Shown: positions 14,923 through 52,275 of the stretch, in pieces
Position numbering within the stretch: position 1 is the stretch's first letter
Layout of the letters: every line of letters starts with the position of its first letter
Source: Kocuria sp.
GTDB lineage: Bacteria > Actinomycetota > Actinomycetes > Actinomycetales > Micrococcaceae
Reading direction: 5' to 3'
Assembly: GCF_030538595.1 (NCBI RefSeq)
Contig: NZ_JAUNTS010000001.1
Location: forward strand, 110,200 to 174,199
Length of the DNA stretch: 64,000 nucleotides
Position numbers and translations under genes: made by a program
Notes under the pieces: generated by a model
What the model was told of the DNA's origin: nothing
Seen by the model: only the letters and a program-made list of their open reading frames with translations
Database searches by the model: none

Positions 14923-14966
14923 TCACTTCTTATCTCCTGCACGTTAAACCTAAACTCCACCACGTC
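14923..14966 (-). other. ychF 3'-end attachment repeat, copy C
   Basis: Read on the minus strand this encodes GDVVEFRFNV, the canonical C-terminus of YchF, followed by GGAG and AAGAAGTGA. It aligns with copy B (15405-15448) and the live ychF end (32178-32225). The frame runs on past FNV to a stop that overlaps the GTG of the DUF262 gene. Interpreted as a recombination scar left by insertion at ychF. Confidence 0.75.
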
Positions 14967-15408
14967 GCCGGTTCACGGCCGACTTGCCCTGCGGGCGGCG
15001 TTCCATTCGGAGGTTGTAAGGTCGGTCCAGGTCGCACGCGGGCAGCCCAAGCTCACGCCTCAGGCTCGAACGAAGAGCCATGATGACCTCGTTGAGGTTC
15101 GCCTCTCCACTCTCAGCCATCCCCACCATGAACCGGCGCGCGGCTTCCACTTCTTGGGTCTCGCCCAGAAGCATGACGTCCGATAGTGAAGCCTCCAGCC
15201 CGGCGATCTGCTCGTCTGTCGGGCCGCCAGGACGGTTAGCCGCGTCGATCAGACGGCGATAGGCATGGACAAGGTAATCAGTCCGCTGCGCCCTACGCGC
15301 GCCCCGAACTTCGCGAACCGACGCGAGGTGGTGGACTAGAAACCCTCCGACTAAAGCCCCGAGACTCGCCGAAAGAAGGGGAACGAGGACATCCAGCCAA
15401 TCGGTCAC
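14950..15408 (-). CDS. Membrane-anchored hypothetical protein (single-gene cassette)
   Basis: 152 residues. One N-terminal transmembrane helix (VLVPLLSASLGALVGGFLVH) precedes a helical, charged cytoplasmic part (RRAQRTDYLVHAYRRLIDAA, EAARRFMVGMAESGEANLNEVI). The GTG start lies inside attachment repeat B at the same place as the restriction-enzyme start in copy A, and the 3' end overlaps repeat C. No family recognised. Its position between defence genes suggests, but does not show, an anti-phage role. Confidence 0.72.
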   Translation of the reverse strand: MTDWLDVLVPLLSASLGALVGGFLVHHLASVREVRGARRAQRTDYLVHAYRRLIDAANRPGGPTDEQIAGLEASLSDVMLLGETQEVEAARRFMVGMAESGEANLNEVIMALRSSLRRELGLPACDLDRPYNLRMERRPQGKSAVNRRRGGV

Positions 15409-15448
15409 TTCTCACCTCTCACACGTTAAACCTAAACTCCACCGCGTT
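15405..15448 (-). other. ychF 3'-end attachment repeat, copy B
   Basis: On the minus strand it reads AVEFRFNV-stop, then GAGGTGAGAAGTGA. The ychF natural end is intact here although no ychF precedes it. Shared with copy C: ACGTTAAACCTAAACTCCACC (plus strand, one base longer than the quoted core CGTTAAACCTAAACTCCACC). It lies 482 bp from copy C and 16.8 kb from the live ychF end. Confidence 0.75.
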
Positions 15449-15530
15449 CCGAACAAGACTTACGTATCTTTCGCTGGGTCTTACGCTCTCAACTGCCAAC
15501 ACGCGCCCCACCTTGCTACACTTGATAGCC

Positions 15531-15547
15531 TAGTCGAACGTCGACTA
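15531..15547. promoter_or_regulatory. Palindromic operator candidate
   Basis: TAGTCGA-ACG-TCGACTA, perfect 7-bp arms, lies 10 bp downstream of a possible -10 element (TACACT) in the 489-bp gap before the excisionase-like gene. Suits a dimeric repressor controlling the replication/excision operon, possibly the XRE protein at 23828. Confidence 0.45.
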
Positions 15548-15709
15548 CTACCCCGACCGGAGCAGTGCTCATCCGGCGGAAAAGCTGAAGACCCCGGCAC
15601 GAGCACACCGGGGTAAGAAGGACTGGCGGGCGACCCACCACCTTCGGATAACAGGGCAGGGTCGCGTGCCGGATGCCAGGGATGGGCTCCTCCGACTGCC
15701 ACTGATGAC

Positions 15710-15859
15710 CCACACTCGCGGGACCGGTGTGACTCCCGGCGCGAGAACAGAGGCCAGAGTCACGGGTTCCGAGCGAGATGGACGCGCGCGGGTAGACCGG
15801 CCGATTGCGAACCACACTCGTCGGTCCTGGTGCTCCAGCGACGAGGACAGAGGCCAGAG
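15710..15859 (+). repeat. Pair of ~50-bp direct repeats upstream of the excisionase/polymerase operon
   Basis: Two imperfect copies, 15710-15759 and 15812-15859, share CCACACTCG at the left, then GG..C..GTG, and ACAGAGGCCAGAG at the right. No ORF crosses this gap (15449-15937) convincingly. Direct repeats next to a replication gene suggest an origin or recombination-directionality site; a structured RNA is the alternative. Confidence 0.55.
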
Positions 15860-15937
15860 CGCAACCGCCCTCATCGGTAGGTGAGGGACCCAAGAGGCGG
15901 CCACGAGTACACGGGTACTGACTCCTAGGGAGTCCCT

Positions 15938-16234
15938 GTGTCCTCGGCACCTCACGTCCAACCTACTTTTCTCACCCTCCAGCAGGCAGCCGCCGATGGC
16001 TATGCCGCGTACTCCACACTTCGGAAGTACATCGCTGACGGCCGGTTGCCCGCCGTCAAGGTCGGTTCCCGCGTCAAGGTGCTGCGCACCGACCTCGACG
16101 CTCTCGCGGTGGCCGTCAGGCCTGCGACCTTCGAGGAGATCGAGGCCGCCGCACGACGGCTCGCCGCTACCGCTCCCCCACTGAGCGACGCCCAGGTTCG
16201 TCGCCTCAGCACGATCTTCGGCGATGCGTCATGA
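15938..16234 (+). CDS. Excisionase-like MerR-type DNA-binding protein
   Basis: 98 residues. The N-terminal helix-turn-helix (FLTLQQAAADGYAAYSTLRKYIADGRLPAVKVGSRVKVLRTDLDAL) is the excisionase-family winged helix; the tail is helical. GTG start after AGGGAG. Its stop overlaps the polymerase start (ATGA), so it is made with the polymerase. Possible roles are directionality factor for the integrase at 25190 or initiator at the repeats just upstream. Confidence 0.8.
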   Translation: MSSAPHVQPTFLTLQQAAADGYAAYSTLRKYIADGRLPAVKVGSRVKVLRTDLDALAVAVRPATFEEIEAAARRLAATAPPLSDAQVRRLSTIFGDAS

Positions 16235-19224
16235 GGGCCGCGGCTCCCGGTTGGGAGCGTCACGAGATCACCGATGGCGCACGGCACGGCATCGTCTTCG
16301 AGGTGCTCGTGCGGCGCCGTGCCCGAGCAACGGTCAGCGGGGGCGTGAACGTGCCCAACAACGCCTCGACCGGCGGGGCAGCAGGGTCTCAGCCTCACGT
16401 CACCGGGTGTGACAGTTCCGAGCTGTCACACTCTTTCGACCCCTCCGAGACCACTGTTTCCCCTGGTCAGGAGGCAGATTGTCGGGCACGGTCATTAGCC
16501 CCTATGGGGAGCCCCGCGTTACGACCGTATGACCGTGGTTCCGTCACCGGCTCGACGACGTCCTCGCCGAGCTGTGTCGGTGGGGGCGCGCCTGTGCCTA
16601 CGACCGCGTTCCGCGACCTTCCGTCGGTGAGGGCGATGGGGACGGGTCGGCTCGGGATCATCGTGGGCTTCGACACTGAGTTCACGACCATCGACGTGGA
16701 ACGGGTGATCGACTCGTACCAATTCGCGGTGCCTGACCCACTCGATCCGTCGGTAGTCGTCGAGGTCGTCATTCTGCCTCCGCTGGGCTCTGATGCTCGC
16801 ATCTCATTGCACACGGCGCTGTGGACCGTGGTGGTGGCCGCTGAACTGTGGCGCTCCCCGCTGGTGCCAGACGAGGTCGGTCCGCGTGGCGTGTCGCGCG
16901 GTGCGTTCTGGTCGGATGACTGGTGGGAGCGCCGGGAGGCGCTGGCGAAGCTGCGCGTGCCCATCGTCCTCGCTTGCCACTACGGGGCAGCGGATCTCAC
17001 GGCCTTCCGCTCAGGTGGGCAGGCTCGGGAACTGGACGCCCTGGTCCGCCTGACTTCAGCTGCCGGTGGTCTCGTGACGCTGCTGCCGTTCCGCTCGCAA
17101 CGCGGTAACGAGAACGGGTATTGGTGGGAGAGTCTCTCGGTGTCCGTCCGCGACACGATGTCGCAGGCCCCTGCCGGGAAGAAGTCGCTCGCTGTGCTTG
17201 GCAAGGCGTGCGGGGTGGCGAAACTCGACGTTCCGGAGGGTTGGGTCTCCCGGATGACCGAGTACCGGCGCGAGCATCTGGCCGAGTTCCTGGAGTACGG
17301 GGTCAACGACGCCTACATCGTCCTGGAGTACCTCGCGAGGCTCTGGGGCGATGGCGTGGTGCCTCCCATCACGCTGAGCGGAGGTGCCGCCGCTGCCCTC
17401 GTGGACTCGGGAAGCGCTTACCTCGGCGCGTCGAGCCCGGCAGAGTTCCGACGGAAGTTCGCTGGCCTCGTAGACGAAGATAACGGCGTAGAGGCCGTCG
17501 AGGAGGGAGACCGGCTGAGCTTCTACGCGAAGCGAGGCCGCAACCCGCTTGATGGTTCGGCGGCGCAGCTGTCGTCGGCATTCGCCCGCGCCTATCACGG
17601 TGGGCTCAACTCGTGCCCGATGCCGGGCTACTACCCGATCCCCACCGTGGACATCGACGCGCAAAATGCCTACCCCACCGCGATGGCGCTGGTGCGCGAT
17701 CTCGACTGGGAGGCCGGTGCCATCGAGGAGGTCGTGCACGAGCGTTTCCTCACCATCGACGACCTGCCGACTGCGTCGACCCCGTTCGTCGGGTTTGTGT
17801 CCTTCGAGTTTCCTGCCGAGGTCGCTCACCCGTGCCTGCCTATCGTCGCCGACGGCACACTTGTCTACCCGCGCACCTCCGAGGGCGTGGCGGGTTCGTG
17901 GTCGGGTGGCCCCGAGGTGTGTCTCGCGCTCCGCCTCGGCGCCGAGGTCTATTGCCAGATCGGCTTCTTCGGGCGCGAACTGAGGCGGGACGGGAGGCCG
18001 AGCTTGTCCCTGCGTAACGGCGTGAAGCAGCTCATCGACGATCGGAACGCCGCCAAGGCGCTCTTCGGCAAGGGTTCTCTGGAGGAACAGACCCTCAAGA
18101 CCGGTGTCAACTCCGTGTATGGGAAGACCGCGCAGGACGTGGCTGAGCAGCGGTCCTGGGATGCTCTTTCGCAGGAGATGGACAACGTCGGGGGTTCGGC
18201 GATTTCCAGCCCCTACCATGCGGCTACCACCACGTCCTTTGTGCGGGCACAGCTCCTGGCGACTATGAATCAGATCGTCGATCGGGGTGGGTGCGTCTAC
18301 TCGGTGACCACGGACGGGTTCATCACCGATCTCTCAGTTGACGAGGTCGCTTCTCTCGACCTGTACGGACTTGCGGAGCCGCTCCGCGAGTCGCGCACTG
18401 CCCTGACGGGCGACCCGTCCATCTGGGAGACCAAGCACCAGCAGGACGATCTGGTGAATTTCACGACACGGGGCAATGCTTCGTTGTCCTTTGGCGGGGT
18501 GTGCGCTCACAACGGTCTCAAGGTCCCGAAGGGGGTCGTTGAGGATAGCGCTGAAGACCGGGAATACCTGCTGCGCGCTGTCGTCACCCGCGAAGGCCGG
18601 GTCCCGAATGGCTATACACGGTTCCCGTCCTTCCAGGAGCTGTCGCGGACGGAAAACCGCAGGGACTTCATTCCGTCCCGCGTTGAGCGGTCCGTTTCGA
18701 TGGACTACGACCTCAAGCGCAAGCCAGTCATGTCGTCGATGACTCCTGAGTTTGTACCGCTTCCCGACGGAACGATGCATGAGGTGGCGACCTTCACCAC
18801 CGAGCCCTGGGAGACCGTCGAGGAGTGCCTGCGGGCTCGACAGATCGCCCGCGAGATGGCGCAGACCAGCTGTCTGCGCACTGTGGCGCAGTGGCGCGAC
18901 TGGGATGTGCGGTATTCCCATGGCAAGGGACGTCGCATCGTCACACCGCAGCGCGCTGTTCTCATGTCGATCGTCATGGCCCACCGGCAGGGCGTGGTGG
19001 AGATCCCAACTCTGGCAGAGGGCGCGCTGAGCGTGCAGCAGCGCCTCGACTGGCTCGCCGAGTGGGGGCTCGGGACGGTATCCCGTGGGGACTGGGACAA
19101 CGCGCGCCGACCGGAGAGGACCTCACAGATGCTGCCTCGGGAGACGTTGGAACCGTACCTGAGTCGTATGCGGCAGATGCCGTCCGGCGAGCATCCCGGC
19201 CCGGCCGACCGGCTGCCGCTGTAA
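16231..19224 (+). CDS. Family-B DNA polymerase, pipolin-type (piPolB-like)
   Basis: 997 residues. An exonuclease domain shows ExoI FDTEF (D148, E150), an ExoII-like HYGAADL and ExoIII YGVND. The polymerase domain has motif A DAQNAYP (D476), motif B KTGVNSVYG (K623) and motif C TTDG (D695). After motif C, FTTRG (TTRG at 745-748) occupies the place where primer-independent PolB enzymes carry KTRG, from memory. Length and layout fit piPolB rather than the shorter phage phi29 enzymes; no terminal-protein gene is visible. The first ~140 residues are low-complexity and contain a hairpin, so a later start is possible; the ATGA overlap supports 16231. Confidence 0.85.
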   Translation: MRAAAPGWERHEITDGARHGIVFEVLVRRRARATVSGGVNVPNNASTGGAAGSQPHVTGCDSSELSHSFDPSETTVSPGQEADCRARSLAPMGSPALRPYDRGSVTGSTTSSPSCVGGGAPVPTTAFRDLPSVRAMGTGRLGIIVGFDTEFTTIDVERVIDSYQFAVPDPLDPSVVVEVVILPPLGSDARISLHTALWTVVVAAELWRSPLVPDEVGPRGVSRGAFWSDDWWERREALAKLRVPIVLACHYGAADLTAFRSGGQARELDALVRLTSAAGGLVTLLPFRSQRGNENGYWWESLSVSVRDTMSQAPAGKKSLAVLGKACGVAKLDVPEGWVSRMTEYRREHLAEFLEYGVNDAYIVLEYLARLWGDGVVPPITLSGGAAAALVDSGSAYLGASSPAEFRRKFAGLVDEDNGVEAVEEGDRLSFYAKRGRNPLDGSAAQLSSAFARAYHGGLNSCPMPGYYPIPTVDIDAQNAYPTAMALVRDLDWEAGAIEEVVHERFLTIDDLPTASTPFVGFVSFEFPAEVAHPCLPIVADGTLVYPRTSEGVAGSWSGGPEVCLALRLGAEVYCQIGFFGRELRRDGRPSLSLRNGVKQLIDDRNAAKALFGKGSLEEQTLKTGVNSVYGKTAQDVAEQRSWDALSQEMDNVGGSAISSPYHAATTTSFVRAQLLATMNQIVDRGGCVYSVTTDGFITDLSVDEVASLDLYGLAEPLRESRTALTGDPSIWETKHQQDDLVNFTTRGNASLSFGGVCAHNGLKVPKGVVEDSAEDREYLLRAVVTREGRVPNGYTRFPSFQELSRTENRRDFIPSRVERSVSMDYDLKRKPVMSSMTPEFVPLPDGTMHEVATFTTEPWETVEECLRARQIAREMAQTSCLRTVAQWRDWDVRYSHGKGRRIVTPQRAVLMSIVMAHRQGVVEIPTLAEGALSVQQRLDWLAEWGLGTVSRGDWDNARRPERTSQMLPRETLEPYLSRMRQMPSGEHPGPADRLPL
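16407..16431. repeat. Perfect 9-bp inverted repeat within the polymerase 5' region
   Basis: GTGTGACAG-TTCCGAG-CTGTCACAC. Located in the N-terminal low-complexity part of the polymerase frame. Could be an operator, an mRNA hairpin that modulates the downstream start, or a replication/nicking site. Confidence 0.55.
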
Positions 19225-19419
19225 TGCTTCCTCGATACCTAGCCGTCGAGCCCATCGGCTCATCTCCCCACCGGCCCCCAGCACAGCGATGTTCGCGACA
19301 AGGGCATTCCCGCGAGCGTCCATCAGGGTCTACCCCGTCGGACAACTCAGGACACCTCTGATTCGCCGTTCAACGAGGTCCATCAGCAACTCATTAAACA
19401 CATTCGTAGGAGGGTCCAA

Positions 19420-20025
19420 ATGTCATCGAACACTACTGGGCAGGTGGTCGGCTACGTGCGCGTGAGCGCCGCCGACCAGAACGAAGCGCGGCAGCTCGAA
19501 GCGGTCGGCGACGTCGACCGGCTGTTCTCCGAGAAGGTCTCTGGGAAGAACACCGCTGACCGCGAGCAGCTCCAGGAGATGCTCGCGTACGTCCGTGCGG
19601 GCGACAAGGTGCGGGTGAAGTCGCCGGACCGGCTCGCTCGCTCGACGACGGATCTGCTCTCAATCGTCCGGGGCCTCGCCGCGAAGGGCGTCGCCGTCGA
19701 GTTCGTCGACAACCCGGCGCTCAACACCGACACGCCTCATGGTGAGTTCATGCTGACGATCCTCGCGGCCGTCGCCGAGTTGGAGCGGGCCACGATCCGA
19801 GAGCGGCAGGCCGAGGGCATCGCGATCGCTAAGCGACGAGGTGTGTATGACCGGGGACCGAAGTTGTCGGTTAAGCAGATCGATTCTGCTCGGGAGCAGG
19901 TCCGGGGTGGGGTGGCGAAGGCGGTCGTTGCCCGTGATCTGGGCGTGAGTCGGTCGACGCAGTATGACGCGCTGAACGGCAGGGGCCGCTATGCGAGGCG
20001 GTGGCTCCCTCTCCCTGAATGTTGA
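19420..20025 (+). CDS. Small serine recombinase (resolvase/invertase)
   Basis: 201 residues. Catalytic domain opens GYVRVSAADQNEARQLEAV with Ser16; R..DRLARS and the helix MLTILAAVAELERATIRERQ follow, and the C-terminal helix-turn-helix is VVARDLGVSRSTQYDAL. Typical of plasmid multimer resolvases. AGGAGG precedes the ATG. The 195-bp gap upstream (19225-19419) holds no gene and is a candidate res site. Confidence 0.92.
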   Translation: MSSNTTGQVVGYVRVSAADQNEARQLEAVGDVDRLFSEKVSGKNTADREQLQEMLAYVRAGDKVRVKSPDRLARSTTDLLSIVRGLAAKGVAVEFVDNPALNTDTPHGEFMLTILAAVAELERATIRERQAEGIAIAKRRGVYDRGPKLSVKQIDSAREQVRGGVAKAVVARDLGVSRSTQYDALNGRGRYARRWLPLPEC

Positions 20026-20041
20026 CGCCGCCGTGTCAACA
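20020..20041. terminator. Inverted repeat at the resolvase stop codon
   Basis: TGTTGAC-GCCGCCGT-GTCAACA, perfect 7-bp arms overlapping the stop codon. Possible terminator or recombination/operator site for the resolvase. The region to 20213 holds no gene I trust. Confidence 0.4.
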
Positions 20042-20213
20042 GTTTGCAGCGGTGCGGTGGTCGCGCCGTTCGTGGGGTGGGCGGCCAGGGACCGCCCCGG
20101 GTGAGGGGGTGAGAGGAAAGCAAACATGAACGGCGCTCTGAGCAATCCGAACATTGCAGTCCAGCAGCGTTCACAAGAGCACCGGCATCGCCGGGTGAAG
20201 AGAGGAGACCAGC

Positions 20214-20558
20214 ATGGCGAACCAGACGAAGGCACAGCGGATCGAGGCGAAGGTCGACAGCGGCTTGTCGCATATCGAGGCGGAGATCGAGGTCGAACAG
20301 GAGGACGCCGCTGCTCGTATCGCTCGGCTGCGGAAGCGGCAGGAGAAGGAGGACGCGAAGGTCCGTGGGATCGTCGTCGACCTCTTGGAGGAGGAGCACT
20401 CGGAGGTTTTCGAGCGTCTCCAGGCCAAGGCGCGGGAGCGGCTGGTCGGTGAGGCTCAGCGTCGTCGGGAGCGTGCGAAGCGGGCGGCGCGTTCGCCTCG
20501 GGTCGCGGCACCGGTTGGCGAGGAGACCGAGCAGTCGGTGTATTCCACCGGGGCGTGA
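20214..20558 (+). CDS. Charged coiled-coil accessory protein of the mobilisation region
   Basis: 114 residues, almost entirely helical and rich in Glu, Arg, Lys and Ala (IEAEIEVEQEDAAARIARLRKRQEKEDAKV), with a basic tail. GAGGAGACC precedes the ATG. No enzyme motif. Position before mobC suggests a plasmid-type accessory DNA-binding or partition factor, but this is inference. Confidence 0.65.
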   Translation: MANQTKAQRIEAKVDSGLSHIEAEIEVEQEDAAARIARLRKRQEKEDAKVRGIVVDLLEEEHSEVFERLQAKARERLVGEAQRRRERAKRAARSPRVAAPVGEETEQSVYSTGA

Positions 20559-20728
20559 GGCCGGTGGTCAGGAGGGGTCGAGGGGAGGGCGCAGCCCTCC
20601 CCCGCAAGCTCCTTTGAGGAAGACGAGCGCCTGCGATGTCTGACGAAAAGGTTGCTTGCACCTCATGTGTCTGGGTCACCGGGCAGAGCAGGCATTTGAA
20701 GCACGACGACGAAGGAGGAGGGATTCAC

Positions 20729-21139
20729 ATGGCAAGCAACAACCCAGACACGCGGCCACCGAGTAAGGGTAAGCGACTCACCGTGCGGTTCGACGAAGGA
20801 GAACTCGCACGCGTGAGGCGGCGCGCCCTTGCGATGGGGGTCGCTCCGTCGGCACTGGTCCGGGCCTCCGTCCTCGACGTTATCGGGGCCGGGGCTGTGC
20901 CGACGGCGATCGCGGCAGCGATCGCGGACCCCGAAGGGGTCACTGCGGACACTTCTGCTCTGCGAGAGCTGCGCATCGAAGTGAACCGCATCGGCGTGAA
21001 CTTCAACCAGCTGGTGCGCAAGGTCAACCAGCACGGGACTGCGGCGTTCAGTCCAACTGCGTTGGCGGTGCTCGCGCAGCTGACAGACGCGCTGCGTCGG
21101 GTCGAGGACGAGCTGGGCGGGACGAGGCGGGCGGCATGA
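20729..21139 (+). CDS. mobC: MobC-like relaxosome accessory protein
   Basis: 136 residues: KGKRLTVRFDEGELARVRRRALAMGVAPSALVRASVLD is the ribbon-helix-helix DNA-binding part, and ELRIEVNRIGVNFNQLVRKVNQHG is the conserved MobC segment. It binds oriT and helps the relaxase nick. The ATG at 20729 has a strong AAGGAGGAGG; a longer frame from 20636 exists but lacks a good site. Stop overlaps the relaxase ATG. Confidence 0.9.
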   Translation: MASNNPDTRPPSKGKRLTVRFDEGELARVRRRALAMGVAPSALVRASVLDVIGAGAVPTAIAAAIADPEGVTADTSALRELRIEVNRIGVNFNQLVRKVNQHGTAAFSPTALAVLAQLTDALRRVEDELGGTRRAA

Positions 21140-22341
21140 GCGTCACCAACTCCAAGCGCATCGCCAAGACCCGGCCCAAGGTCGAGTACGAGTTGTACGG
21201 GGCCAAGGGCACCGAGAAGTACCGGCGCAACAAGGCCGAGGGCACCGACCGGGTGGCAGCGCTGCGTGTGGACGCCGAGAGCCCTGATGAGTTCATCGAG
21301 CGCGCCGACGCACTGGCGAGGGCGCACGGCCGCCGGATCGAGGCTCGCTCCTTGATCCAGAGCTTCGAGCGCAGCGAGTTCGACCCGAACGATCCCGAGG
21401 CTGTGCAGCAGGTCAACGACTTGGGCTACGAGTTCGCCAAGACGCTGCACCCGAACAGCGACGTGCTGGTGATCACGCACGTCGACGGTGCGGGCGGTCA
21501 CCCGCACAACCACATCACGGTCATCAACCACGACAACGTCACCGGCCGTGCACTTCAGGGCAACAACATGCACTGGCACGTGGCAAAGCAGAACGACGAA
21601 CTGATGCGGGAGTACGGGCTGCGTGTGGCCGAGCGCGGTTCGCGCAACGTGGATCAGCGCTCGCTGTGGGAGCACCGGCGTGAAGGCGAGGCTGTCTCGG
21701 AGTTCGACCGACAGCTCGGCGACCTGATCGAGGAATCGCTTGCCGATCGGCGCTCGGTCGACCTCGAAAGCTTCCGGCAAGTGCTCGCGGAGAAGGGCAT
21801 GGAGCTGGAGCAGAAGGTCCACAAGATCAAGGCCAGCGCCGACGGATCGGCCCAGGACCGCGAGTCGATCGGGTGGACCTACAAGGCCGTCGATACCACG
21901 GGTGAGAAGCCGAGGAAACGACGCAGGAAAGCCTCGTCGCTCTCGGATGAGTTCACCTATCAGGGTGTTCAACAGTTTTTCAATTACAACCAGGAAAGGA
22001 CGGTGCGTCATGAGCACTTGGGACAAGATTGCACAGCAGGAATTCGAGGAGTCCAGGAACAGGCAGGAGGAGCTGTCGAGCACGAGTCACTCGATCGAAC
22101 CGCAGAACGACGCCGCACAGGCGGCGGAGCCGGTGAACAGCTCGGTGGGCTCAAGTCAGAGTTCGGCTCCGGGGGCCGACGGGTCGCCGATGAGCAGGCA
22201 GGAGGTCGTGGCTCTGGTGACGACGTTGCTCGGCGCGTCCAACGTGAAGCAGCTCGGCGAAGGCTCATCGAAGATCTCCAACGAGGAGATTCTGACCAGG
22301 ATCGAGAAGCTCATGGAGCAGAACGAGGGCCTTCGCTCTGA
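21136..22341 (+). CDS. Relaxase (MobA/VirD2 family)
   Basis: 401 residues. The metal-binding triad HPHNH (H122, H124, H126) follows VLVITHVDGAGG, and an N-terminal Tyr (Y21 or Y29) is the likely nucleophile. It should nick oriT and pilot the strand during conjugative mobilisation; no type IV secretion genes are present, so the element would be mobilised by a helper. The last ~110 residues overlap the next gene out of frame and look low-complexity. Confidence 0.9.
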   Translation: MSVTNSKRIAKTRPKVEYELYGAKGTEKYRRNKAEGTDRVAALRVDAESPDEFIERADALARAHGRRIEARSLIQSFERSEFDPNDPEAVQQVNDLGYEFAKTLHPNSDVLVITHVDGAGGHPHNHITVINHDNVTGRALQGNNMHWHVAKQNDELMREYGLRVAERGSRNVDQRSLWEHRREGEAVSEFDRQLGDLIEESLADRRSVDLESFRQVLAEKGMELEQKVHKIKASADGSAQDRESIGWTYKAVDTTGEKPRKRRRKASSLSDEFTYQGVQQFFNYNQERTVRHEHLGQDCTAGIRGVQEQAGGAVEHESLDRTAERRRTGGGAGEQLGGLKSEFGSGGRRVADEQAGGRGSGDDVARRVQREAARRRLIEDLQRGDSDQDREAHGAERGPSL

Positions 22342-22897: not shown

Positions 22898-22908
22898 TGC
22901 ATCGAGAA

Positions 22909-22948: not shown

Positions 22949-22964
22949 CTTATTGGTCTCCTGA

Positions 22965-23797: not shown

Positions 23798-23827
23798 AAG
23801 GCAGGAATCGGGCTGACTCTTGAAAGA

Positions 23828-24496: not shown

Positions 24497-24514
24497 CAGC
24501 ACAACTCCTTCCCG

Positions 24515-25063
24515 TCACAGGTTGCGGAAGACGAACACGCCGCCTCCCGGCGCGTCCTCGACCGTGTAGTCGAACGCGAGATCACGGGTCCACGCCGCCC
24601 AGTCGAAGTACCGAGCAACGTCCTCCGGTACTCCTGACAACAGGCCGGTGCTGTCAGCCAGCTCCTCTGCGTACTCACGGAACGACTCCCACTCGCCGCA
24701 GTAGCGGTCCTCGAAATCGGGGATGCTCGGCAGGTCACCCGTGCCCTCAGCTACGTAGTCACCGCTCCTCACCCACGCGCACAACGCCTCGCGCTGGTGC
24801 TCCGGAACCGACGCCAGGGAGCTACCCCACTCAGTAGCCTCGTGCGGGCTCATCTCGCCGCGCACGGGCAGATTCTCGTGGTCGAAGCACCACAGCTCCT
24901 CGCAACCGGCGCTGCTACCGCCCGCGCCCCGGTGCACGTCGGTCAGGGTGACCTCGTCGGCATCGACCGCGTCGAACCACTCACCGACGAGGCGTCCGGT
25001 GTTGTAGCAGTGCAGGCAGCCGACCCACACTCGGGGCGCGCTGTCCAAGGTGCTCGTGTCCAT
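24515..25063 (-). CDS. ardA: ArdA anti-restriction protein
   Basis: 182 residues, acidic throughout, with the ArdA pattern: RVWVGCLHCYNTGRLVGEWF, ELWCFDHENLPV, DRYCGEWESFREYAEELADS, VARYFDWAAWTRDL. ArdA mimics B-form DNA and blocks type I restriction enzymes so that incoming mobile DNA survives. Start ATG after AGGAGGAG. It fits the mobilisable nature of the element. Confidence 0.92.
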   Translation of the reverse strand: MDTSTLDSAPRVWVGCLHCYNTGRLVGEWFDAVDADEVTLTDVHRGAGGSSAGCEELWCFDHENLPVRGEMSPHEATEWGSSLASVPEHQREALCAWVRSGDYVAEGTGDLPSIPDFEDRYCGEWESFREYAEELADSTGLLSGVPEDVARYFDWAAWTRDLAFDYTVEDAPGGGVFVFRNL

Positions 25064-25167
25064 GGATCTCCTCCTCATGTCGAGGAGAGCGGCGAACGCG
25101 ACCGGCAGTCAGGCTCTGATGAAATGACGCGCTTACGCCGCGTCAACCGCTCTCAGGAGACACCCCG

Positions 25168-25186
25168 GGTCCGCCTGCGGCGGACC
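25168..25186. terminator. Hairpin after the integrase gene
   Basis: GGTCCGCC-TGC-GGCGGACC, perfect 8-bp arms, three bases beyond the integrase stop on the minus strand. Likely rho-independent terminator, without a clear U-run. The rest of 25064-25167 holds no gene. Confidence 0.6.
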
Positions 25187-25189
25187 TAG

Positions 25190-26764
25190 TCATTTCCAGA
25201 CGATTTCGACGGATGCTGGATCAAAGCCTTTTCGCCCTCGGGGCTGCGGCAACAGCAAAACAGTTGCCAGAACATCAATTATCTGACGCCGCAATTCGAG
25301 CGAAGCGTGCTCAAAAGCGGCAGCGGGGTTGTCGACCCCGAGGATCGGTAGAAGAGCGCCCGTACGACTTTGGAGCATCTTTTGGGCTTCCAGTTCTTGG
25401 ATGCGCGTGCCGGCGGCATCACGGACACGTTTGAGGTCGTGTCCTTCGATGATCTCTGCATCGTAGTCGTGCTGTGCACGGGTTATCCTCGCGCGCTGGT
25501 CGCTTATCGCGGCGTCAATAGACTTAGTCTTGGGCGTATCTACAGGCGTTATGATCTTCTTCACGGCATCTTTTTTGGCGAGACGGACACTGATGACCCG
25601 CGTCACAAAATCGTCAATGGCTGGACCTGATCGGACCATGTGACCTGGGCACGTGTACCCGCGAGGCGCGCCTGTAACCTTCTTGCCGCACGCCTGACCA
25701 GTCTCGGAATCGACGAGTCCGCAACGGTACAGCCCACTCCCGAGGCGCTTGCGTTTGGTAGCGCCACTGGTGTTGGTGACGCGCTTCTTATCGTCGAGGA
25801 TCTCCTGAACTTTCCACCATATTTCGTCGTCCACGATCGCGTCCCACTGACCCCGGATAGGCTCCCCGGCCTCATCACGAATGATCTGGGCTCGCCAAGT
25901 TCGTCGACGGTTACCGTCCTTCTGGTATTCCTTGGGCGTGTACGTCGACAAGGCCGCATATCGCGGGTTGCGGAGGATGCCGAGCACCGTCGAAGGTGAC
26001 CAGGGGCCGTCAGGTTTGGGTTCTCGCGGCTCGTACGGCCGATTCTCGTCCTCGGCCCGGATCTTCCGCGCTTGCTCGCGTTCCATTGACACCGTGTGGG
26101 TATGTTTCGGGAGCGCGGGCAACTCTTTGATGACCTCGGTGCCGCTGAGGGCTCGAGCTAGCGAGCGCAGCGACTCCGGATGTTCTGGTTTGCTGAATAG
26201 TGCATAGATTGCTCTCACCGCGTCGGCCTCGTGCTTGATCACGTCGCCGTTAACTGCGTACCCGAGCGGTCGCATACCCTTCGGCGCGCGGCCCATCTTG
26301 GCTCGCTGCTGCTGCGCCTTGGACTGCCGCTTGCCCTTGCGCACAACCTCTGCGCGCGCCACCTGGATCTTGATCCCGGCGATCAGCAGCCCGTTTTCGT
26401 TCGTCAGGTCCACATCACCGGACACTGACTTAAGCAAAAGCCCGCGGAACCGAGCGGCGTCAACCCAGTCCTCCATCTGCCGGGGCTGACGAGTGAGTCG
26501 GTCTAGGTCCCAACACACGATCGCGTCGAATGCACCGGTTTCATAGTCAGAGACCATGCGGTCGTAGTCAGGTCGAGACTTAGTGGCGTCTGTGGCGCTG
26601 ATCGACTGGTCGATGTATGTCTCCACAACGGTCCACCCTTCGCGCTCAGCGAGCCGTTCGCAATCCTCACGTTGACGCTCAATGGCGAGCCCGTCCATCT
26701 CGCGGTCGAGGGATATGCGTAGGTAGATGGCAGCACGACGAGGGGCGGCTGACGGCATCTTCAT
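25190..26764 (-). CDS. Large serine recombinase (integrase)
   Basis: 524 residues. The resolvase catalytic domain opens AAIYLRISLDREMDGLAIERQ with Ser18 and has DAIVCWDLDRLTRQPRQMED. The recombinase domain includes PLGYAVNGDVIKHEADAVRAIYALF, and a zinc beta-ribbon shows YRCG...C and GYTCPGH. A coiled-coil C-terminus follows. Such enzymes catalyse directional attP x attB integration. A site related to the ychF junction lies 20 bp upstream of its start (26785-26806). Confidence 0.93.
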   Translation of the reverse strand: MKMPSAAPRRAAIYLRISLDREMDGLAIERQREDCERLAEREGWTVVETYIDQSISATDATKSRPDYDRMVSDYETGAFDAIVCWDLDRLTRQPRQMEDWVDAARFRGLLLKSVSGDVDLTNENGLLIAGIKIQVARAEVVRKGKRQSKAQQQRAKMGRAPKGMRPLGYAVNGDVIKHEADAVRAIYALFSKPEHPESLRSLARALSGTEVIKELPALPKHTHTVSMEREQARKIRAEDENRPYEPREPKPDGPWSPSTVLGILRNPRYAALSTYTPKEYQKDGNRRRTWRAQIIRDEAGEPIRGQWDAIVDDEIWWKVQEILDDKKRVTNTSGATKRKRLGSGLYRCGLVDSETGQACGKKVTGAPRGYTCPGHMVRSGPAIDDFVTRVISVRLAKKDAVKKIITPVDTPKTKSIDAAISDQRARITRAQHDYDAEIIEGHDLKRVRDAAGTRIQELEAQKMLQSRTGALLPILGVDNPAAAFEHASLELRRQIIDVLATVLLLPQPRGRKGFDPASVEIVWK

Positions 26765-26784
26765 GAATCCAGTCTACCAACAAC

Positions 26785-26806
26785 ACGTAAGACGTGTACG
26801 AACTTC
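26785..26806. other. Attachment-site-like sequence beside the integrase
   Basis: Plus-strand ACGTAAGACGTGTACGAACT (26785-26804) aligns with ACGTAAGACCTGTCCTGAAC (32195-32214) at the ychF/restriction junction: nine identical bases at the left, then TGT, C and GAACT. It also forms part of a short palindrome (ACACGT-AAG-ACGTGT). Integrase genes usually sit next to their att site. Likely an att half-site. Confidence 0.55.
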
Positions 26807-26883
26807 TTTTCAGTGTCCGTCCGACTGCAAGTGGTACTCTCAAATTGTTCGCCCGTCGTCACAACGTGCCACAGGAGCCTGCC

Positions 26884-27309
26884 ATGCCGCAGATAACCCT
26901 TCGAGTCCCAGATCTGGTTGAGTGCACGCACCGAGTCCATCCCGACTTGGGGAGCGTAGTTGAGGAATTCTGCGACGCCGACCAGAACAATCTTGCAGAG
27001 GCGGCATCTCTATGTCAGAAGTGGATTGCTCCCGAGTTCATGAAGCTCCTCAACGAGCTTGAGCTCGATGGGCGCCTCCCTGACATCGACTTCGACATCG
27101 ACGCTACCGATGCTTCTAAGCGCGTACTGACGTTTAGAGCGCATGAGGGCACGACGACTGAGGATGTTCGCGGCCTCGTCCAACGCGCATGGAAAGCAAC
27201 ACTCAACACCTATGCGGATGCCCTGTACTATCGCGCGCAAGAGTTGGCGACCGGACACTCCACACCGGATTGGACCCCCGACAAGGCCGTGGGTTCCCCG
27301 ACGCTCTAG
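26884..27309 (+). CDS. Hypothetical protein upstream of AbiV
   Basis: 141 residues, acidic, no signal peptide. Segments: PQITLRVPDLVECTHRVHPDLGSVVEEFC, KWIAPEFMKLLNELELDGRLPDIDFDID, VLTFRAHEGTTTEDVRGLVQRAW. ATG with AGGAGCC upstream. Eighteen bp before abiV, same strand, so co-transcribed; it may regulate or partner AbiV. No family recognised. Confidence 0.7.
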   Translation: MPQITLRVPDLVECTHRVHPDLGSVVEEFCDADQNNLAEAASLCQKWIAPEFMKLLNELELDGRLPDIDFDIDATDASKRVLTFRAHEGTTTEDVRGLVQRAWKATLNTYADALYYRAQELATGHSTPDWTPDKAVGSPTL

Positions 27310-27327
27310 GTGTAGGAGAATCGTCGT

Positions 27328-28023
27328 GTGAAGATGCATCCGAACACGGCGCGCACGTTCTGGAAGGCCCTCATGGACAATGCCTCCGGGCTCATCGCTG
27401 ACGCCCACACTCTGCTCGAGCGCGGGTCGTTCGGTCGCGCCCGATCGCTCGCCGTCCTCGCTCAGGAGGAGCTGGGCAAGGCGCTGTGGATCTATGAGAC
27501 GTTCGAGCATGACTGGAGTACCGGGACCGAGCGCGCGTGCGATGTGCCACGGCTGACGTCAGACGGCCGTCGACATGCGATCAAGTACATGGAAGCCTTC
27601 GTTTTCGGACAGGAACTCGCTGCGTTCTGGGGCGACTACGAGTCCTACGAACTACCGGAGGACGAATCCCCAGAAGGCTGGAAGACTTACTTCGCGAAGA
27701 AGAGAGACGAAGCACAGGCCGCGGGTAAGCGAGCCAACGAGGAGAAGATGGCCGGGTTTTACGTCGACCTTAGTGACAAGGAGGTCCGCTCTCCCGCCGA
27801 CATTTCCGCGGGAACGATCAATGCCGACCTCCAGACAGCGGCACAGGTCGTCGAGATGCTGCTCATCAAGGACCACAGCCGGATGAAGCTCGAGGCCACG
27901 ACGCCTTACGACAGCACGCACGCGCAGCAGCACCGACTCCTGCCGATCTCGCACCCCGAGGACTGGGCTGCAGCGTCGCAGGAGTTCCGAGACGGTGACT
28001 ACCTCAAGGGCAAGGAGGTTTGA
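27328..28023 (+). CDS. abiV: AbiV family abortive-infection protein
   Basis: 231 residues with the AbiV core ALMDNASGLIADAHTLLERG, GRARSLAVLAQEELGKALWIYETF and a C-terminal YVDLSDKEVRSPADIS. Lactococcal AbiV blocks phage late-gene translation after a phage protein triggers it. GTG start with TAGGAGA upstream. It converges with the HEPN-like gene, six bp apart. Confidence 0.85.
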   Translation: MKMHPNTARTFWKALMDNASGLIADAHTLLERGSFGRARSLAVLAQEELGKALWIYETFEHDWSTGTERACDVPRLTSDGRRHAIKYMEAFVFGQELAAFWGDYESYELPEDESPEGWKTYFAKKRDEAQAAGKRANEEKMAGFYVDLSDKEVRSPADISAGTINADLQTAAQVVEMLLIKDHSRMKLEATTPYDSTHAQQHRLLPISHPEDWAAASQEFRDGDYLKGKEV

Positions 28024-28029
28024 GCAGCG

Positions 28030-29151
28030 CTATCCGGCCCCTCGGGCCAGCCGGTCGGCGTAGCCGATGAGGCTCGTGACGAGCATAAGCACTTGGATGC
28101 AGTTGCGCTTGCTGAACTGACGCGAGGAGACGCCGTGGACGCTGGCGTGGCGGGAGTAATAGTGCGGTGCCTTGTCGCCCTTGTGACTCCAGAACTCCTC
28201 GTGCGCGTTCCAGATCGGCAGCCACACGAACGCTTCGCGGACGCCCATCTCATCAATCTCCTCGGGGACGTCCGCTCCTCTCTTGCGGTTCGTGATAGCC
28301 CCGCGGGCCTTCCGGTCGGGGTAGAAGCGGTAGATCAGTGTGTCCAGCGTGACGGTGAACATGGCCTGGGCCGAACGGGCATGGCCGGCGCGCATCGCGC
28401 CGAGACCGTCGAGCGCGAAACCGAGCTCGTCGCTGACCGCGGCGTGGTCTGCCCGCTCCAGCACCGCCGCGCAGTCCTCCATGAGCGACTCATAGCAATC
28501 GCTGAGCACCCGTCGTCGCCCGGCGCGGTCCTTCGCTCGCAGCAGCCGCAGGGCCGTCCGGCCACGCGGCACGAGGTAGAGCGGGATGCCCTCCTGCTCG
28601 ACGAACTCGTGGACCTGACTGGCCCTGATCTCGTCCGCATGATCTTTGAGGTTGGGCGGCAGCAGGGCGCGGTTGAGACCACGGAGTGCCTCGGGTTCGA
28701 AGAGGGGCCCGAGAGACCTTCGCAGGCCTTCCATTGCCTGCGCCTGCTGCTCCGAAATCCGCTTGAGCATCTCCTGGGTCGCGGGATCGAGGACCGGTCC
28801 CTTCCGCGCGGACAGGTCGAACGGCGGCATCGAGAAGGTGGGAACGCTCGCGGCGGTCGACGCCATCTGCTCCCGGAGCCGCTCGTTCATCGGCGCGAGG
28901 GCCTCGCGGACTATGGCGCTGTAGTCGGGCATCGACGAGCGGATCCGCTCCTGCAGGGGCGCGAGGACGCTGGCAACGAGATCGTCCATGTTCGGCAGCA
29001 GCGACCGCGAGAACCCCGCTGGCATGCGGAAGCCGACCCTTCGATCCTTCTGATCGCCCTCGGACGGCTCTTCCAACTCCGACGCTCCTTCCCCGGCACG
29101 GGAGGCGTCCTCGTCTTCAGGTTCGACCCCGTGGCCGTCGTCATCGTTCAC
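28030..29151 (-). CDS. HEPN-like RX4H protein of the ychF-linked defence operon
   Basis: 373 residues. The N-terminal ~150 are charged and Pro/Met-rich with helical repeats (LAPLQERIRSSMPDYSAIVREALAPMNERL). The C-terminal domain is helical and ends YYSRHASVHG...NCIQVLMLVTSLIGYAD, where R334-x4-H339 matches the HEPN ribonuclease motif. The ATG overlaps the TIGR02391 stop (ATGA). Probably an RNA-cutting effector. I do not recognise a named family. Confidence 0.72.
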   Translation of the reverse strand: MNDDDGHGVEPEDEDASRAGEGASELEEPSEGDQKDRRVGFRMPAGFSRSLLPNMDDLVASVLAPLQERIRSSMPDYSAIVREALAPMNERLREQMASTAASVPTFSMPPFDLSARKGPVLDPATQEMLKRISEQQAQAMEGLRRSLGPLFEPEALRGLNRALLPPNLKDHADEIRASQVHEFVEQEGIPLYLVPRGRTALRLLRAKDRAGRRRVLSDCYESLMEDCAAVLERADHAAVSDELGFALDGLGAMRAGHARSAQAMFTVTLDTLIYRFYPDRKARGAITNRKRGADVPEEIDEMGVREAFVWLPIWNAHEEFWSHKGDKAPHYYSRHASVHGVSSRQFSKRNCIQVLMLVTSLIGYADRLARGAG

Positions 29152-30005
29152 GGCGAACTTCCGTTGGACGCCGACACGCCGTCAAGTCTTCGATGGACCG
29201 TGGAGACCATCGTCAGCACTTCGAGCAGCTCGTCGTCGCTGATCGTGCGGCTCAGCCGCGGGTCGTGAGCTGTCGGGTTCCGGTAGAGGCCGTTCAAACC
29301 CTTCACGAGATTCGCGAGCCCGGTCTGCTCGTCCTTCTCGGTCTGCGTCCGCAGCGAGTTGATCGCGAGCATCGGGACGCCAGACTTGCCGAGCGCCAGA
29401 GCGGCGTCGATAAGGGCGGCTCCGTCGCCCGACGCTCCGGTCAGGCTACGTAGACGATCGAAGATACTCTTGGTCGCTTCGAGGCAGGCATGAAAGTGCG
29501 CCTGCTTTAGCACCTCCATGGAGCAGTACCGGAGCACTTCCGGATGGCACTTGCGGCGGCGAAGCTCGTCGCGGAGCGACGTGGCGATGCGTGAGGCTTC
29601 ATCCAGGGACTGGGCGACTGCACCCTTGGCAACCTTGCCCTCGTCGTTGACCCGCAGCCCGACGAACGCGAGATGCTCGTTGAGGCCGTCCTGGCGGAGG
29701 GAGAACAGCTCCGGCTGGCTCCGATAACGCACTGGCTCCATCGCCGTGACGATGAAAGTAATGATGCGCTTCGGACTCCCGAATCGGTTCTGCGCCACGA
29801 CGAAGGCCTCGGCGAGGCGAACCCGCTTGGTCGCGCCAGGAAGCGGGTCCTGCATGTCAAGGCGCGCCAACAGGTCTTGGATCTCACTCCCGGTCAGTCC
29901 ATCCTCAGTATCGGCGAGCACTGCCGCGACCGACTGCAGGACCGAGTACGACCACGGCGGTAGCGGCGGCTTAGACGCGGTCCCTTCTGTCAACGATCCA
30001 AGCAC
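29148..30005 (-). CDS. TIGR02391 (Hypoth_ymh) family protein
   Basis: 285 residues with the family's C-terminal domain: HACLEATKSIFDRLRSLTGASGDGAALI, INSLRTQTEKDEQTGLANLVKGLNGLYRNPTAHDPR. R242-x4-H247 is a HEPN-type RNase motif. The family is common beside restriction-modification genes. The N-terminal ~150 residues may sense DNA or partner. Overlaps the methyltransferase by 16 bp and the next gene by 4 bp. Confidence 0.85.
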   Translation of the reverse strand: MLGSLTEGTASKPPLPPWSYSVLQSVAAVLADTEDGLTGSEIQDLLARLDMQDPLPGATKRVRLAEAFVVAQNRFGSPKRIITFIVTAMEPVRYRSQPELFSLRQDGLNEHLAFVGLRVNDEGKVAKGAVAQSLDEASRIATSLRDELRRRKCHPEVLRYCSMEVLKQAHFHACLEATKSIFDRLRSLTGASGDGAALIDAALALGKSGVPMLAINSLRTQTEKDEQTGLANLVKGLNGLYRNPTAHDPRLSRTISDDELLEVLTMVSTVHRRLDGVSASNGSSP

Positions 30006-31198
30006 CGCTGACCGGAAACCCGTCCGTGATCTGGTAGAGCAGAGGGATTCACTTTGTCGGCCAGACTCACCGCTTCGGCAATCTCGGACTCGGTCTCATC
30101 GCTTGAAGCAATAAGCCCTCCAAGGACGGCGCATCCGACCTCCCTGCCCAGCAGCGTTGGGTTGACTCCCTCAATAGCGCGAGCGACGTGCCTGAAGACG
30201 AGAATGTCTTCATAAACGAGCGCCCCATAACGACTCCGGAACTTACGCTCATGCTTTCCGACTAGTTCTAGGCCACCGCTACCAGTTGCCATTTCATACA
30301 CTATCTGCGGGTTCGGAACTGCAGACCCGCGGACGCTAGACTCGCGTCCAACCACCCAAACAGAAACGCCGCCATTTCTCACCGCACGCAAACTCTCGCG
30401 CAGAGTCTCCCCAATGTCTTGCGCGTACTGAATGATCGTTAGGAAGCGATTCTGTCGATGCTTCCTGTTCGACCCGAACTCCGCCCGGGCCGCGGGCAGA
30501 ACCCCGTAACCAAGCAGCTCCACAGCCTTGCGATAATTTTGGTGGTAGTTGAAGACGTTCACGTACGGTGGAGACGTCAAAACCATCCCTGCTTGACCGT
30601 CCGGGACAAAAATTGATCGGGAGTCACCTAGTTGGATAGAAAGCTCAGGCCCGGCATCGGGCAAGCTCTCCACCAGATCTGATACAAGTCTGAGCGCGCG
30701 ATCAAGATTCCTCCTCAAAACCGTGTCACCATTCTTTAGAGCAAGAAGGAACACAGCATTGGCGACGAGAGACTCAAGCGGTTCGTCGGACTCCTGCACC
30801 ACTCTGAGAAGGGAACCCGTGTCGCTACTGGCAGCGCGATCGGCAGCGAACCTCGTGAACACGCGATTGAGTGCTTTTTCTCTTTCACTCGGGTGGAAAT
30901 TGACCAGCAGATAGAGACTGGCAAGAATCTGCGCCGCGGGATTCACCTCTACCCCATGGCTGGGAAGTCCAGCGCGCGCAGCCTCGATCATCGTAGTGCC
31001 GCTCCCGCAGAAGGGATCGACCACCAAGCCACCTTCAGAGTATGTCTGGAGGAGTACCTCGACCAACCCCGGGCTAAACTGCCCTCGCCATGGGAGCGAG
31101 TTGACGCGCCTTCCGGGCTCGATATCGAGGCGACTCTGCGGGATCACGTCGCGAGAGTACGCAATTTCTGAGTAGGACACAGCTTCAGCCACAACCAT
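29990..31198 (-). CDS. DNA methyltransferase of the restriction-modification system
   Basis: 402 residues. SAM motif DPFCGSGTTMIEAA (61-74) and catalytic TSPPYVNVFNY (TSPPY at 208-212). FCGSGTT before TSPPY is the order of beta-class N4-cytosine or N6-adenine enzymes, N4-cytosine being more likely for TSPPY. The start ATG shares a base with the nuclease stop (TGATG). Expected to protect the host sequence cut by the Bpu10I-type enzyme. Only one methyltransferase is present, although asymmetric sites normally need two activities. Confidence 0.88.
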   Translation of the reverse strand: MVVAEAVSYSEIAYSRDVIPQSRLDIEPGRRVNSLPWRGQFSPGLVEVLLQTYSEGGLVVDPFCGSGTTMIEAARAGLPSHGVEVNPAAQILASLYLLVNFHPSEREKALNRVFTRFAADRAASSDTGSLLRVVQESDEPLESLVANAVFLLALKNGDTVLRRNLDRALRLVSDLVESLPDAGPELSIQLGDSRSIFVPDGQAGMVLTSPPYVNVFNYHQNYRKAVELLGYGVLPAARAEFGSNRKHRQNRFLTIIQYAQDIGETLRESLRAVRNGGVSVWVVGRESSVRGSAVPNPQIVYEMATGSGGLELVGKHERKFRSRYGALVYEDILVFRHVARAIEGVNPTLLGREVGCAVLGGLIASSDETESEIAEAVSLADKVNPSALPDHGRVSGQRCLDR

Positions 31199-32181
31199 CA
31201 GAAATAGCCCCGCTCCACAGCATCAGAAAGGTCGGTCGTCTGATTCTGAAGGATAGCCCGGACCCTGTGGACGAATCGCAAGACGACATCGGTCCTTACC
31301 GGAGTATTTCGGAGACGTGCAACGTACGCCTGGCGATTCTCACGCCGATAACGGGCATTACTATAGTTCTTCCGGTCTTGAGAGCCTGTTCGTTTGCCCC
31401 GCAAGACAAGCACTTCGGAGATGTCTGTGCCAGCCGAACTGATAGGCGTCATATCCAGATACTCGCAAATCAAGAAATAGTGAGACCCGGGAGCCGCAAT
31501 AGTCAGATCATGGCTTGTAGCCGAGGCTTCCTGAAACATCGTTTTGTCGAGATTCGTCTTAAGTTCCGCGGCAATATAAGCCACATACGTCGAAACTTCG
31601 TCAGTCATCGACGAGTCGAAAGAAGAACTAAACGACGCCTTCATATATGCCGGCCGACCAATCGTGAAGTCTTGGTCCTTGCTCCGCACGACCAATCCTG
31701 GGCGGCCCGTCCCATCAGTTAGCGCTGACTGGAACCGAGCCGCAGCGAACGCCTTCGCCGGCCCGACGACCAAGTCGATATCGCCAAGTTCAGGCATAAT
31801 GACCGGATCGACGAGCCACGGGAACCATTCTTCGAGCACCGAATTGTCGAGCTTCAACTGTCCTTTTTGCCTATAGAGGAACGATTCATCGCTATCCCAG
31901 ATGAGATCGACTTCGATCTTCTCCTTGTAGGCGTTGAGAAGGCCCACAAGGTCTTCAACCTTTGCATCGCCAGTTGAAGTCAAGTTGGACATGTCTTCGA
32001 TCCATTGCGCGTAATGCCGAACCAGTGACTCGACCTTCGGCAGGTCCGAACCGGGGAGCTTCGCATTATTGACAAGTTCACGCAGTTTGTCCCCGTGCGG
32101 CGTGGGGCGACGGTATGGAGCAGCAGCAACTTCCTCGACTGGGACGGTCTCCTCGAAGGCGTCCTGATCTTCACGCATCAC
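31198..32181 (-). CDS. Bpu10I family type II restriction endonuclease
   Basis: 327 residues with Bpu10I-family blocks: FLYRQKGQLKLDNSVLEEWF, then GRPGLVVRSKDQDFTIGRPA, AELKTNLDKTMFQEASATSH, and YFLICEYLDMTPI. The E..K of AELKTNLDK fits a PD-(D/E)XK active site. Bpu10I itself cuts asymmetric CCTNAGC with two subunits; here there is one. The GTG start overlaps the ychF stop (GTGA) and lies within the attachment repeat, so translation depends on ychF. Confidence 0.85.
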   Translation of the reverse strand: MMREDQDAFEETVPVEEVAAAPYRRPTPHGDKLRELVNNAKLPGSDLPKVESLVRHYAQWIEDMSNLTSTGDAKVEDLVGLLNAYKEKIEVDLIWDSDESFLYRQKGQLKLDNSVLEEWFPWLVDPVIMPELGDIDLVVGPAKAFAAARFQSALTDGTGRPGLVVRSKDQDFTIGRPAYMKASFSSSFDSSMTDEVSTYVAYIAAELKTNLDKTMFQEASATSHDLTIAAPGSHYFLICEYLDMTPISSAGTDISEVLVLRGKRTGSQDRKNYSNARYRRENRQAYVARLRNTPVRTDVVLRFVHRVRAILQNQTTDLSDAVERGYF

Positions 32182-32225
32182 TTCTTGCCTCCAGACGTAA
32201 GACCTGTCCTGAACTCCACCACGTC
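32178..32225 (-). other. ychF 3'-end attachment repeat, copy A (live junction)
   Basis: Contains the last codons and stop of ychF, a GGAGG ribosome site and the GTG of the restriction gene. It matches copies B and C at TCACTTCT, CTCC, ACGT and AACTCCACC, with a 4-bp insertion and an altered middle that instead resembles the site beside the integrase (26785). This hybrid composition is what attL/attR products look like. Confidence 0.72.
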
Positions 32226-52262: not shown

Positions 52263-52275
52263 CGCCACCGGGACC

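Follow-up and report, generated by a model that had tools for sequence, protein, structure and literature searches.

Staphylococcal cassette chromosome (SCC) elements and SCC-like islands, which according to PMC10581047 sit at rlmH and are moved by the Ccr serine recombinases, are the closest known kind of element to the insertions analyzed here. The latter occupy the 3′ end of ychF, the gene for a conserved GTPase, in a 64,000-nucleotide (nt) stretch of a Kocuria sp. genome (G000; NCBI RefSeq assembly GCF_030538595.1, contig NZ_JAUNTS010000001.1, positions 110,200 to 174,199; hereinafter the window). We find that the ychF end is a docking site for lined-up mobile DNA pieces in many actinobacteria, with the window being one case. 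Several of these pieces carry phage-defence genes, and most bring their own last ychF codons, which keeps the gene complete.

As with SCC (PMC10581047), the ychF insertions combine a large serine recombinase, entry into a conserved gene end and imperfect direct repeats with the presence of recombinase-less elements, composite islands and restriction genes in the cargo. In the window, the gene end is present as imperfect direct repeats on both sides of the element, whose recombinase has both domains and is linked to the site, movement by this enzyme being a prediction. However, the target is ychF rather than rlmH, the hosts are Actinomycetes and a locus may hold up to 11 further sites. Moreover, most right half-sites here encode the end of the host protein, the elements with a recombinase rewrite that end so that two basic residues come last, and the window element carries a relaxase. 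With respect to Ccr, the window enzyme was compared with solved chains only, the nearest being the TP901-1 integrase (2.3e-11). PMC8637289 and PMC10383233 place pneumococcal prophages and a satellite near the same gene and table the PPH005 integrase among tyrosine integrases; these insertions are alike in their ychF neighborhood but differ in being intergenic, upstream of ychF and at 26-bp sites.

Searches of one open-access library, preprints excluded, yielded no description of cassette arrays at ychF. Integrons and integrase-less cassette clusters likewise present small accessory-gene cassettes in one orientation with a common site and reordered between genomes, and an oriented cassette array with a common site is indeed present at ychF. 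In contrast to integrons, the ychF sites are not folded, lie in a coding end and have half-sites matching those of serine recombinase elements; no integron integrase was seen beside the array among PF00589 matches, an IntI-specific model not having been used. Serine-integrase mobilisable elements resemble the 16.8-kb element of the window in its possession of a recombinase, relaxase, MobC, ArdA, cargo, attL and attR, but the latter sits amid other insertions and restores the gene end with its own codons. An integrase beside the att site, as in tyrosine-integrase elements of the actinomycete integrative and conjugative element (AICE) type, is not found in the window. It is present in the genus genome G005 (locus L065), where such an element of about 11.6 kb in the same ychF end reaches from ychF to arfB, its integrase lying immediately after ychF in the opposite orientation and its core, TTCCGCTTCAACGTCT, being repeated in front of arfB.

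The window contains three copies of the ychF end, all on the ychF (minus) strand: copy A (32178..32225), copy B (15405..15448) and copy C (14923..14966; VEFRFNVQEIRS). Alignment and translation confirmed these positions, which come from a first-pass annotation of this DNA. Identical alignment columns number 35 of 43 between A and B, 35 of 43 between A and C and 37 of 44 between B and C, with B and C showing a 5-nt gap relative to A. The 21-nt core is identical in B and C; it finds a mean of 0.00 matches in 100 window shuffles and no further match in its own 3.14-Mb genome with up to 3 mismatches allowed, so that the occurrence of the repeats in unrelated contexts, which would speak against insertion at one site, was not seen. 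Every repeat ends in GAAGTGA, whose TGA and GTG are usable as the YchF stop and the start of the next open reading frame (ORF). Copy A translates as DVVEFRTGLTSGGKK and a stop (the ychF tail being VEFRTGLTSGGKK and a stop), copy B as NAVEFRFNV and a stop, and copy C as DVVEFRFNVQEIRS. Thus, the live ychF has lost the normal VEFRFNV ending, as the first-pass annotation held, and its tail now reads TGLTSGGKK before the stop. The accompanying claim that B and C keep this ending stands for the letters; the stop directly behind them is missing from C, and therefore the complete normal ending is found in B only.

Copies A and B are the two ends, attL and attR respectively, of a mobilisable element of 16.8 kb that encodes a large serine recombinase and extends from the core of B to that of A (15443..32220), whereas C is an older insertion. 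Copy A joins half B of ychF to half-site P′ of the element, and copy B joins the core to B′, the former end of ychF (VEFRFNV and a stop), with half-site P lying just upstream of it on the minus strand at about 15444–15468. To judge from the sequence, after insertion of the element ychF reads into P′ (TGLTSGGKK) and the far end consists of P joined to the old B′. Copy C sits 482 bp beyond B, and the foreign DNA extends left of C to about 3.7 kb of the window. Since synteny with the relative G020 resumes only there, the foreign stretch measures about 28.5 kb. Left of C no further site copy is recognisable even at a low profile threshold. As a possible end of the array, arfB was not found in the window's own genome, which gave two weak matches only, and the G020 synteny was used instead.

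Comparisons across 27 genomes of the genus, each with a ychF match, and 295 of the family place the window in a wider pattern. Element-type YchF tails are found in seven of the 27 (G000, G011, G012, G018, G020, G022 and G026); the remaining 20 tails end before the stop in FNV (17) or in FAI or FAV (3). The DNA behind ychF is readable in 26, the contig of G007 stopping at ychF, and four of these have an empty site with ychF followed directly by convergent arfB (G003, G014, G015 and G023). These are the empty sites ending in VEFRFNV that the first-pass annotation had suggested seeking, and they hold the shared core rather than lacking it. A 49-nt site profile, built from 34 sites that were among those it then scored, recovers further site copies in 15 of the 26 loci: 11 in G013, five each in G010 and G019, three each in G002, G006, G008 and G017, and 1–2 in eight others. 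Among these eight, G024 is doubtful, since its weak match (score 15.2) falls within an ORF resembling HigA and is likely to be spurious. All profile-found sites in the genus point in the ychF orientation, and the reversed control (655,452 bases) gave no match. The last site of the G006 array precedes a native-type ychF end and then arfB, from which it follows that the array lies within the ychF end. The proposal of successive insertions at one site is thus supported by the empty sites, by loci with 1 to 11 further copies and by the comparison of filled with empty sites.

Across the family, the 21-nt pattern with one mismatch matches 271 of 295 genomes with ychF itself counted (0 for the control columns), and 123 have at least two matches, which in 109 of them all lie on one strand. 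The profile finds the same oriented sites in 17 other genomes, chosen for their listed 21-nt pattern matches, and none in 389,184 reversed bases. Viral contigs searched with the exact pattern yielded no stretch. We found nothing in favor of regarding the repeats as chance matches or as copies of the ychF end that arose by duplication and drift, and as shuffles, reversed controls and genome comparison all contradict this explanation, we give it practically no credence.

One comparison captures an insertion directly. A 1.2-kb cassette lies immediately behind ychF in G226, G290, G199 and G243; in G251, from the same genus, it comes second, 94–95% identical, behind a 3.9-kb cassette. The point at which homology is lost coincides exactly with the site, and the two flanks of the 3.9-kb insertion have 27 to 29 bp in common. 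Arrays might instead spread by homologous recombination on the ychF flanks after DNA uptake with the repeats as mere by-products, and a ychF flank common to all arrays, as well as a whole array common to G008 and G017, would fit this. However, the sharing of so few base pairs at the ends of the 3.9-kb insertion, with a conserved cassette behind it, and the existence of units with sites on both sides make this highly improbable. Among 49 homologous segments of at least 250 bp wholly within arrays of two genomes (related genomes, hence not independent), three have both ends at sites in both genomes, the longest being of 2,566 bp at 97.3% identity between G010 and G013. Counting these three, nine have the left end and seven the right end at a site, while 2.1% of array positions lie within 40 bp of a site; most segments (36 or more of 49) end away from sites. 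Some cassettes are thereby seen, on sequence comparison, as exact site-to-site units in different array positions, with sites oriented like ychF, and the same small units without a recombinase are found again from site to site, 95–97% identical, at different positions in different species.

The detached sites retain the imprint of a coding end: 58 of 87 encode VEFRFNV and a stop, in 50 DNA versions. Of 229 codons for F, R, F, N and V that depart from the consensus, 189 (83%) are synonymous, as compared to a null mean of 14% and a largest null value of 23% (0 of 2000 as high), and substitutions in these tails fall mostly on third codon positions (205, against 69 first and 20 second). This synonymous bias indicates that the tails were shaped as a ychF end, as successive displacement predicts.

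The half-sites link the cassettes to the recombinase elements. The half-sites P, to the left of B, and P′, to the right of A, form an inverted repeat around a GGTGGA core, with agreement at 18 of 26 positions in the window (0 of 5000 shuffles), at 18 of 26 in G012 and at 16 of 23 in G147; a recombinase-less cassette of G013 shows symmetry of the same type (14 of 26, p 0.007). A profile built from the left arms of 87 cassette sites matches all 16 recombinase-type tails tested at their reverse-complemented P′ (p ≤ 0.006 each); cassettes and recombinase elements thus have a half-site in common. These arms were drawn from 29 genomes, some of which are close relatives, and include neither the sites of the window itself nor the attR of G012 or G018; the test took in 16 of the 20 known element-type tails, leaving out G057, G103, G120 and G169. 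Most cassettes have a B′-like right half. Over the 87 sites, both strands and with DNA parameters, attC-like folding shows no clear excess (mean z −0.36 and −0.39; z below −2 at 6 and 5 sites on the two strands).

The enzyme itself is linked to ychF well beyond the window, where it is a large serine recombinase of 524 amino acids (25190..26764, minus; Resolvase 2.9e-26, Recombinase 1.7e-9). The homologue search scored at most five candidates per genome, and homologues with E from 1e-66 to 1e-30 were not among the 16 followed (E ≤ 2.3e-80). Twelve of these 16 lie on the ychF contig on the downstream side of ychF (G000, G012, G018, G040, G057, G103, G120, G130, G147, G169, G232 and G244), with the recombinase oriented against ychF in G103, G120 and G169. 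G011, G026 and G211 have only the site in the DNA fetched, while G225 has neither ychF nor site, its recombinase being 405 bases from the contig end. Of eight further named recombinase loci, ychF is present in four, those of Promicromonospora, Gordonia, Sinomonas and Rothia (YchF identity 78 and 80% for the last two), and a ychF-end site stands beside the recombinase in Lentzea and Rathayibacter; Bowdeniella and an Eggerthellaceae bin have neither, with the recombinase reaching the contig end. The distance from the first base of the YchF stop to the start of the recombinase ORF is 12 nt in Promicromonospora, Gordonia and G040.

The YchF tails coded by elements differ in length and sequence over 20 loci and yet all end in two basic residues (18 KK, 1 RK and 1 KR). 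At six of the seven genus loci with such tails, the next ORF can start at a GTG overlapping the ychF stop (GTGA), and cargo starting in this overlap would be translated by coupling to ychF in this genus.

Taken together, we consider it likely that the ychF 3′ end is the attB of a large serine recombinase family that also acts in trans on recombinase-less cassettes. These cassettes have a left half-site that matches that of the recombinase elements, and in most of them the right half mimics B′. From the agreement between cassette and recombinase-element half-sites we infer that ychF-linked recombinases may mobilise cassettes in trans, whereby the enzyme of resident or passing elements would work on them. 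The shared half-site and B′-like right halves suggest that a circle with a P.B′-like site recombines with B.B′ behind ychF to give B.B′-like, cassette and P.B′. Since the right half-site is both recombination site and last host codons, every cassette insertion would restore an intact attB and YchF end, and array growth could continue. In the window, the GmrSD/HigA cassette (C) would probably have arrived first, the 482-bp cassette (B) second and the 16.8-kb element (A) last. Whether this amounts to a cassette-capture system of its own kind, with ychF-targeting serine recombinases and a family-wide pool of recombinase-less P.B′-like cassettes building open-ended integron-like arrays, is in our judgement evenly balanced. 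If so, integron-like capture would have arisen a second way, from serine recombination and a host coding end in a large actinobacterial family, with the recombinase-bearing elements also rewriting the YchF tail and, in this genus, coupling cargo translation to ychF. Additionally, the ychF end would serve as a fixed address at which to look up the accessory genes of many genomes, defence genes included. It would also supply a set of linked serine recombinases that have defined sites and might be used as integration tools, as well as a case of mobile elements rewriting the C-terminus of a conserved GTPase.

Several observations weigh against this reading. Under the pairing used, the P/P′ symmetry fails in G018 (p 0.67) and G020 (p 0.13), and mispaired arms of the same family score about as high (14–18) as true pairs, so that the half-site is shared rather than pair-specific. 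One of ten native tails, that of G021, also matches the left-arm profile (p 0.027). The GTGA overlap is found at none of 13 loci outside the genus, and for this reason coupling is proposed for this genus only. Serine integrases of the canonical kind are not known to recombine P.B′ with B.B′. Recombinase homologues (E ≤ 1e-30) occur in only 50 of the 295 family genomes as against 123 with at least two sites, and no PF00239 match at E ≤ 1e-4 is found in G272 or G290, two complete genomes of one contig each that carry arrays. Arrays without a serine recombinase may draw the enzyme from passing elements, use another enzyme or no longer move. A rival view is that arrays are fossils of separate serine recombinase elements, inserted serially and then stripped of genes, with no mobility in trans. 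Besides G272 and G290, it draws on decayed sites and tails (VEFRFNV with its stop is no longer read in 29 of 87) and on recombinase fragments, as in Rothia L037. Set against the recurrence of recombinase-less units described above and the upkeep of their half-sites, it appears to us a tentative alternative, less probable than movement in trans.

The final contrary point is that the element in the ychF end of G005 has a tyrosine integrase. It would suit a scheme in which a tyrosine recombinase, either a lost integrase or the host XerC/XerD, moves the cassettes and the serine elements merely share the target gene. Such a scheme could also invoke the short inverted repeat in the site core, CGGAAC-N8-GTTCCG, and the fact that G272, G226, G165 and G243 have arrays and yet only two PF00589 proteins each, which in the complete genomes G272 and G226 lie far from ychF. 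The core has no known resemblance to dif. The scheme is rendered unlikely by the left arms of the cassettes, which match the half-sites of serine recombinase elements, by the core repeated in G005, which is a different, shorter stretch with another left arm, and by the window's contig, which has no PF00589 match (the five in its genome are all elsewhere).

The following cargo samples were picked, and no enrichment is claimed; the codon-usage gene caller misses real genes, such as the window's own endonuclease and methyltransferase, and the cassette gene lists are descriptive only. Among the first ORFs of ten loci with element-type tails are four DNA methyltransferases (type III in G011, HsdM in G026, N6_Mtase in G232 and EcoRI-type in G169), an SNF2 helicase matching DrmD (G012), an AAA ATPase (G020) and a YobI-like ATPase (G120); those of G018, G022 and Rothia have no Pfam match. 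Ten further cassette proteins picked by eye gave Pfam matches for seven, including a P-type ATPase, GmrSD, OLD-like and a TIR protein, and none for three, while eight of ten proteins chosen from the sampled cargo have PADLOC matches. In the Rothia locus L037 (9155–9973), the C-terminus of a cargo ORF reads DGDVVEFRTGLTSKK and a stop, with the attachment site forming its 3′ end. In the G169 array (L135, L153), three cassettes each start with a near-identical 118-amino-acid ORF (MSDGLPACPECHE...) right behind the site.

Within the window, the anchor gene ychF (32178..33275, minus; YchF-GTPase_C 2.9e-38, MMR_HSR1 1.1e-22) with its element-coded tail is followed by a Bpu10I-type restriction endonuclease whose start overlaps the ychF stop (31198..32181, minus; RE_Bpu10I 1.8e-76), a DNA methyltransferase (29990..31198, minus; N6_N4_Mtase 1.9e-10), a PD-Lambda-3_B-like Hypoth_Ymh protein (29148..30005, minus; Hypoth_Ymh 2.5e-33, PADLOC 7.8e-71), a 373-amino-acid ORF with no family match (28030..29151, minus) and an AbiV-like HEPN protein (27328..28023, plus; HEPN_AbiV 1.6e-39). 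Beyond the recombinase come an ArdA antirestriction protein (24515..25078, minus; 7.7e-29), a relaxase (21136..22341, plus; 1.6e-16), a MobC/NikA-like protein (20636..21139, plus; NikA-like 1.1e-6, MobC 5e-5), a small serine resolvase (19420..20025, plus; 1e-37), a 997-amino-acid ORF (16231..19224, plus) and an HTH_17 protein, excisionase-like in size (15938..16234, plus; 1.1e-6). Integrase, relaxase and two att ends are thus all present in the element; no conjugation apparatus family appears among the scanned window ORFs, no dedicated search having been made. The 997-amino-acid ORF has no match in Pfam, PADLOC or solved chains, and its reading as a DNA polymerase is therefore without support.

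The sole ORF of the C-to-B cassette encodes 152 amino acids with no family match (14950..15408, minus). Behind C lie a GmrSD-type endonuclease (13090..14892, minus; GmrSD_N 2.2e-36, GmrSD_C 1.3e-19) and a HigA-like antitoxin (12450..12845, minus; HTH_3 1.6e-10); their DNA also matches a cassette of G019, which, unlike the window, has a site behind HigA. Also left of C, two 208-nt stretches (6100–6307 and 11443–11650) are 71% identical, the second lying inside an ORF resembling an acetyltransferase. Elsewhere in the window, a 48-nt hairpin-like sequence with long arms (GGGGGAGGTAGCGATTC / GAATCGCTACCTCCCCC) is repeated at 51101–51148 and 52216–52263 with 83% identity.

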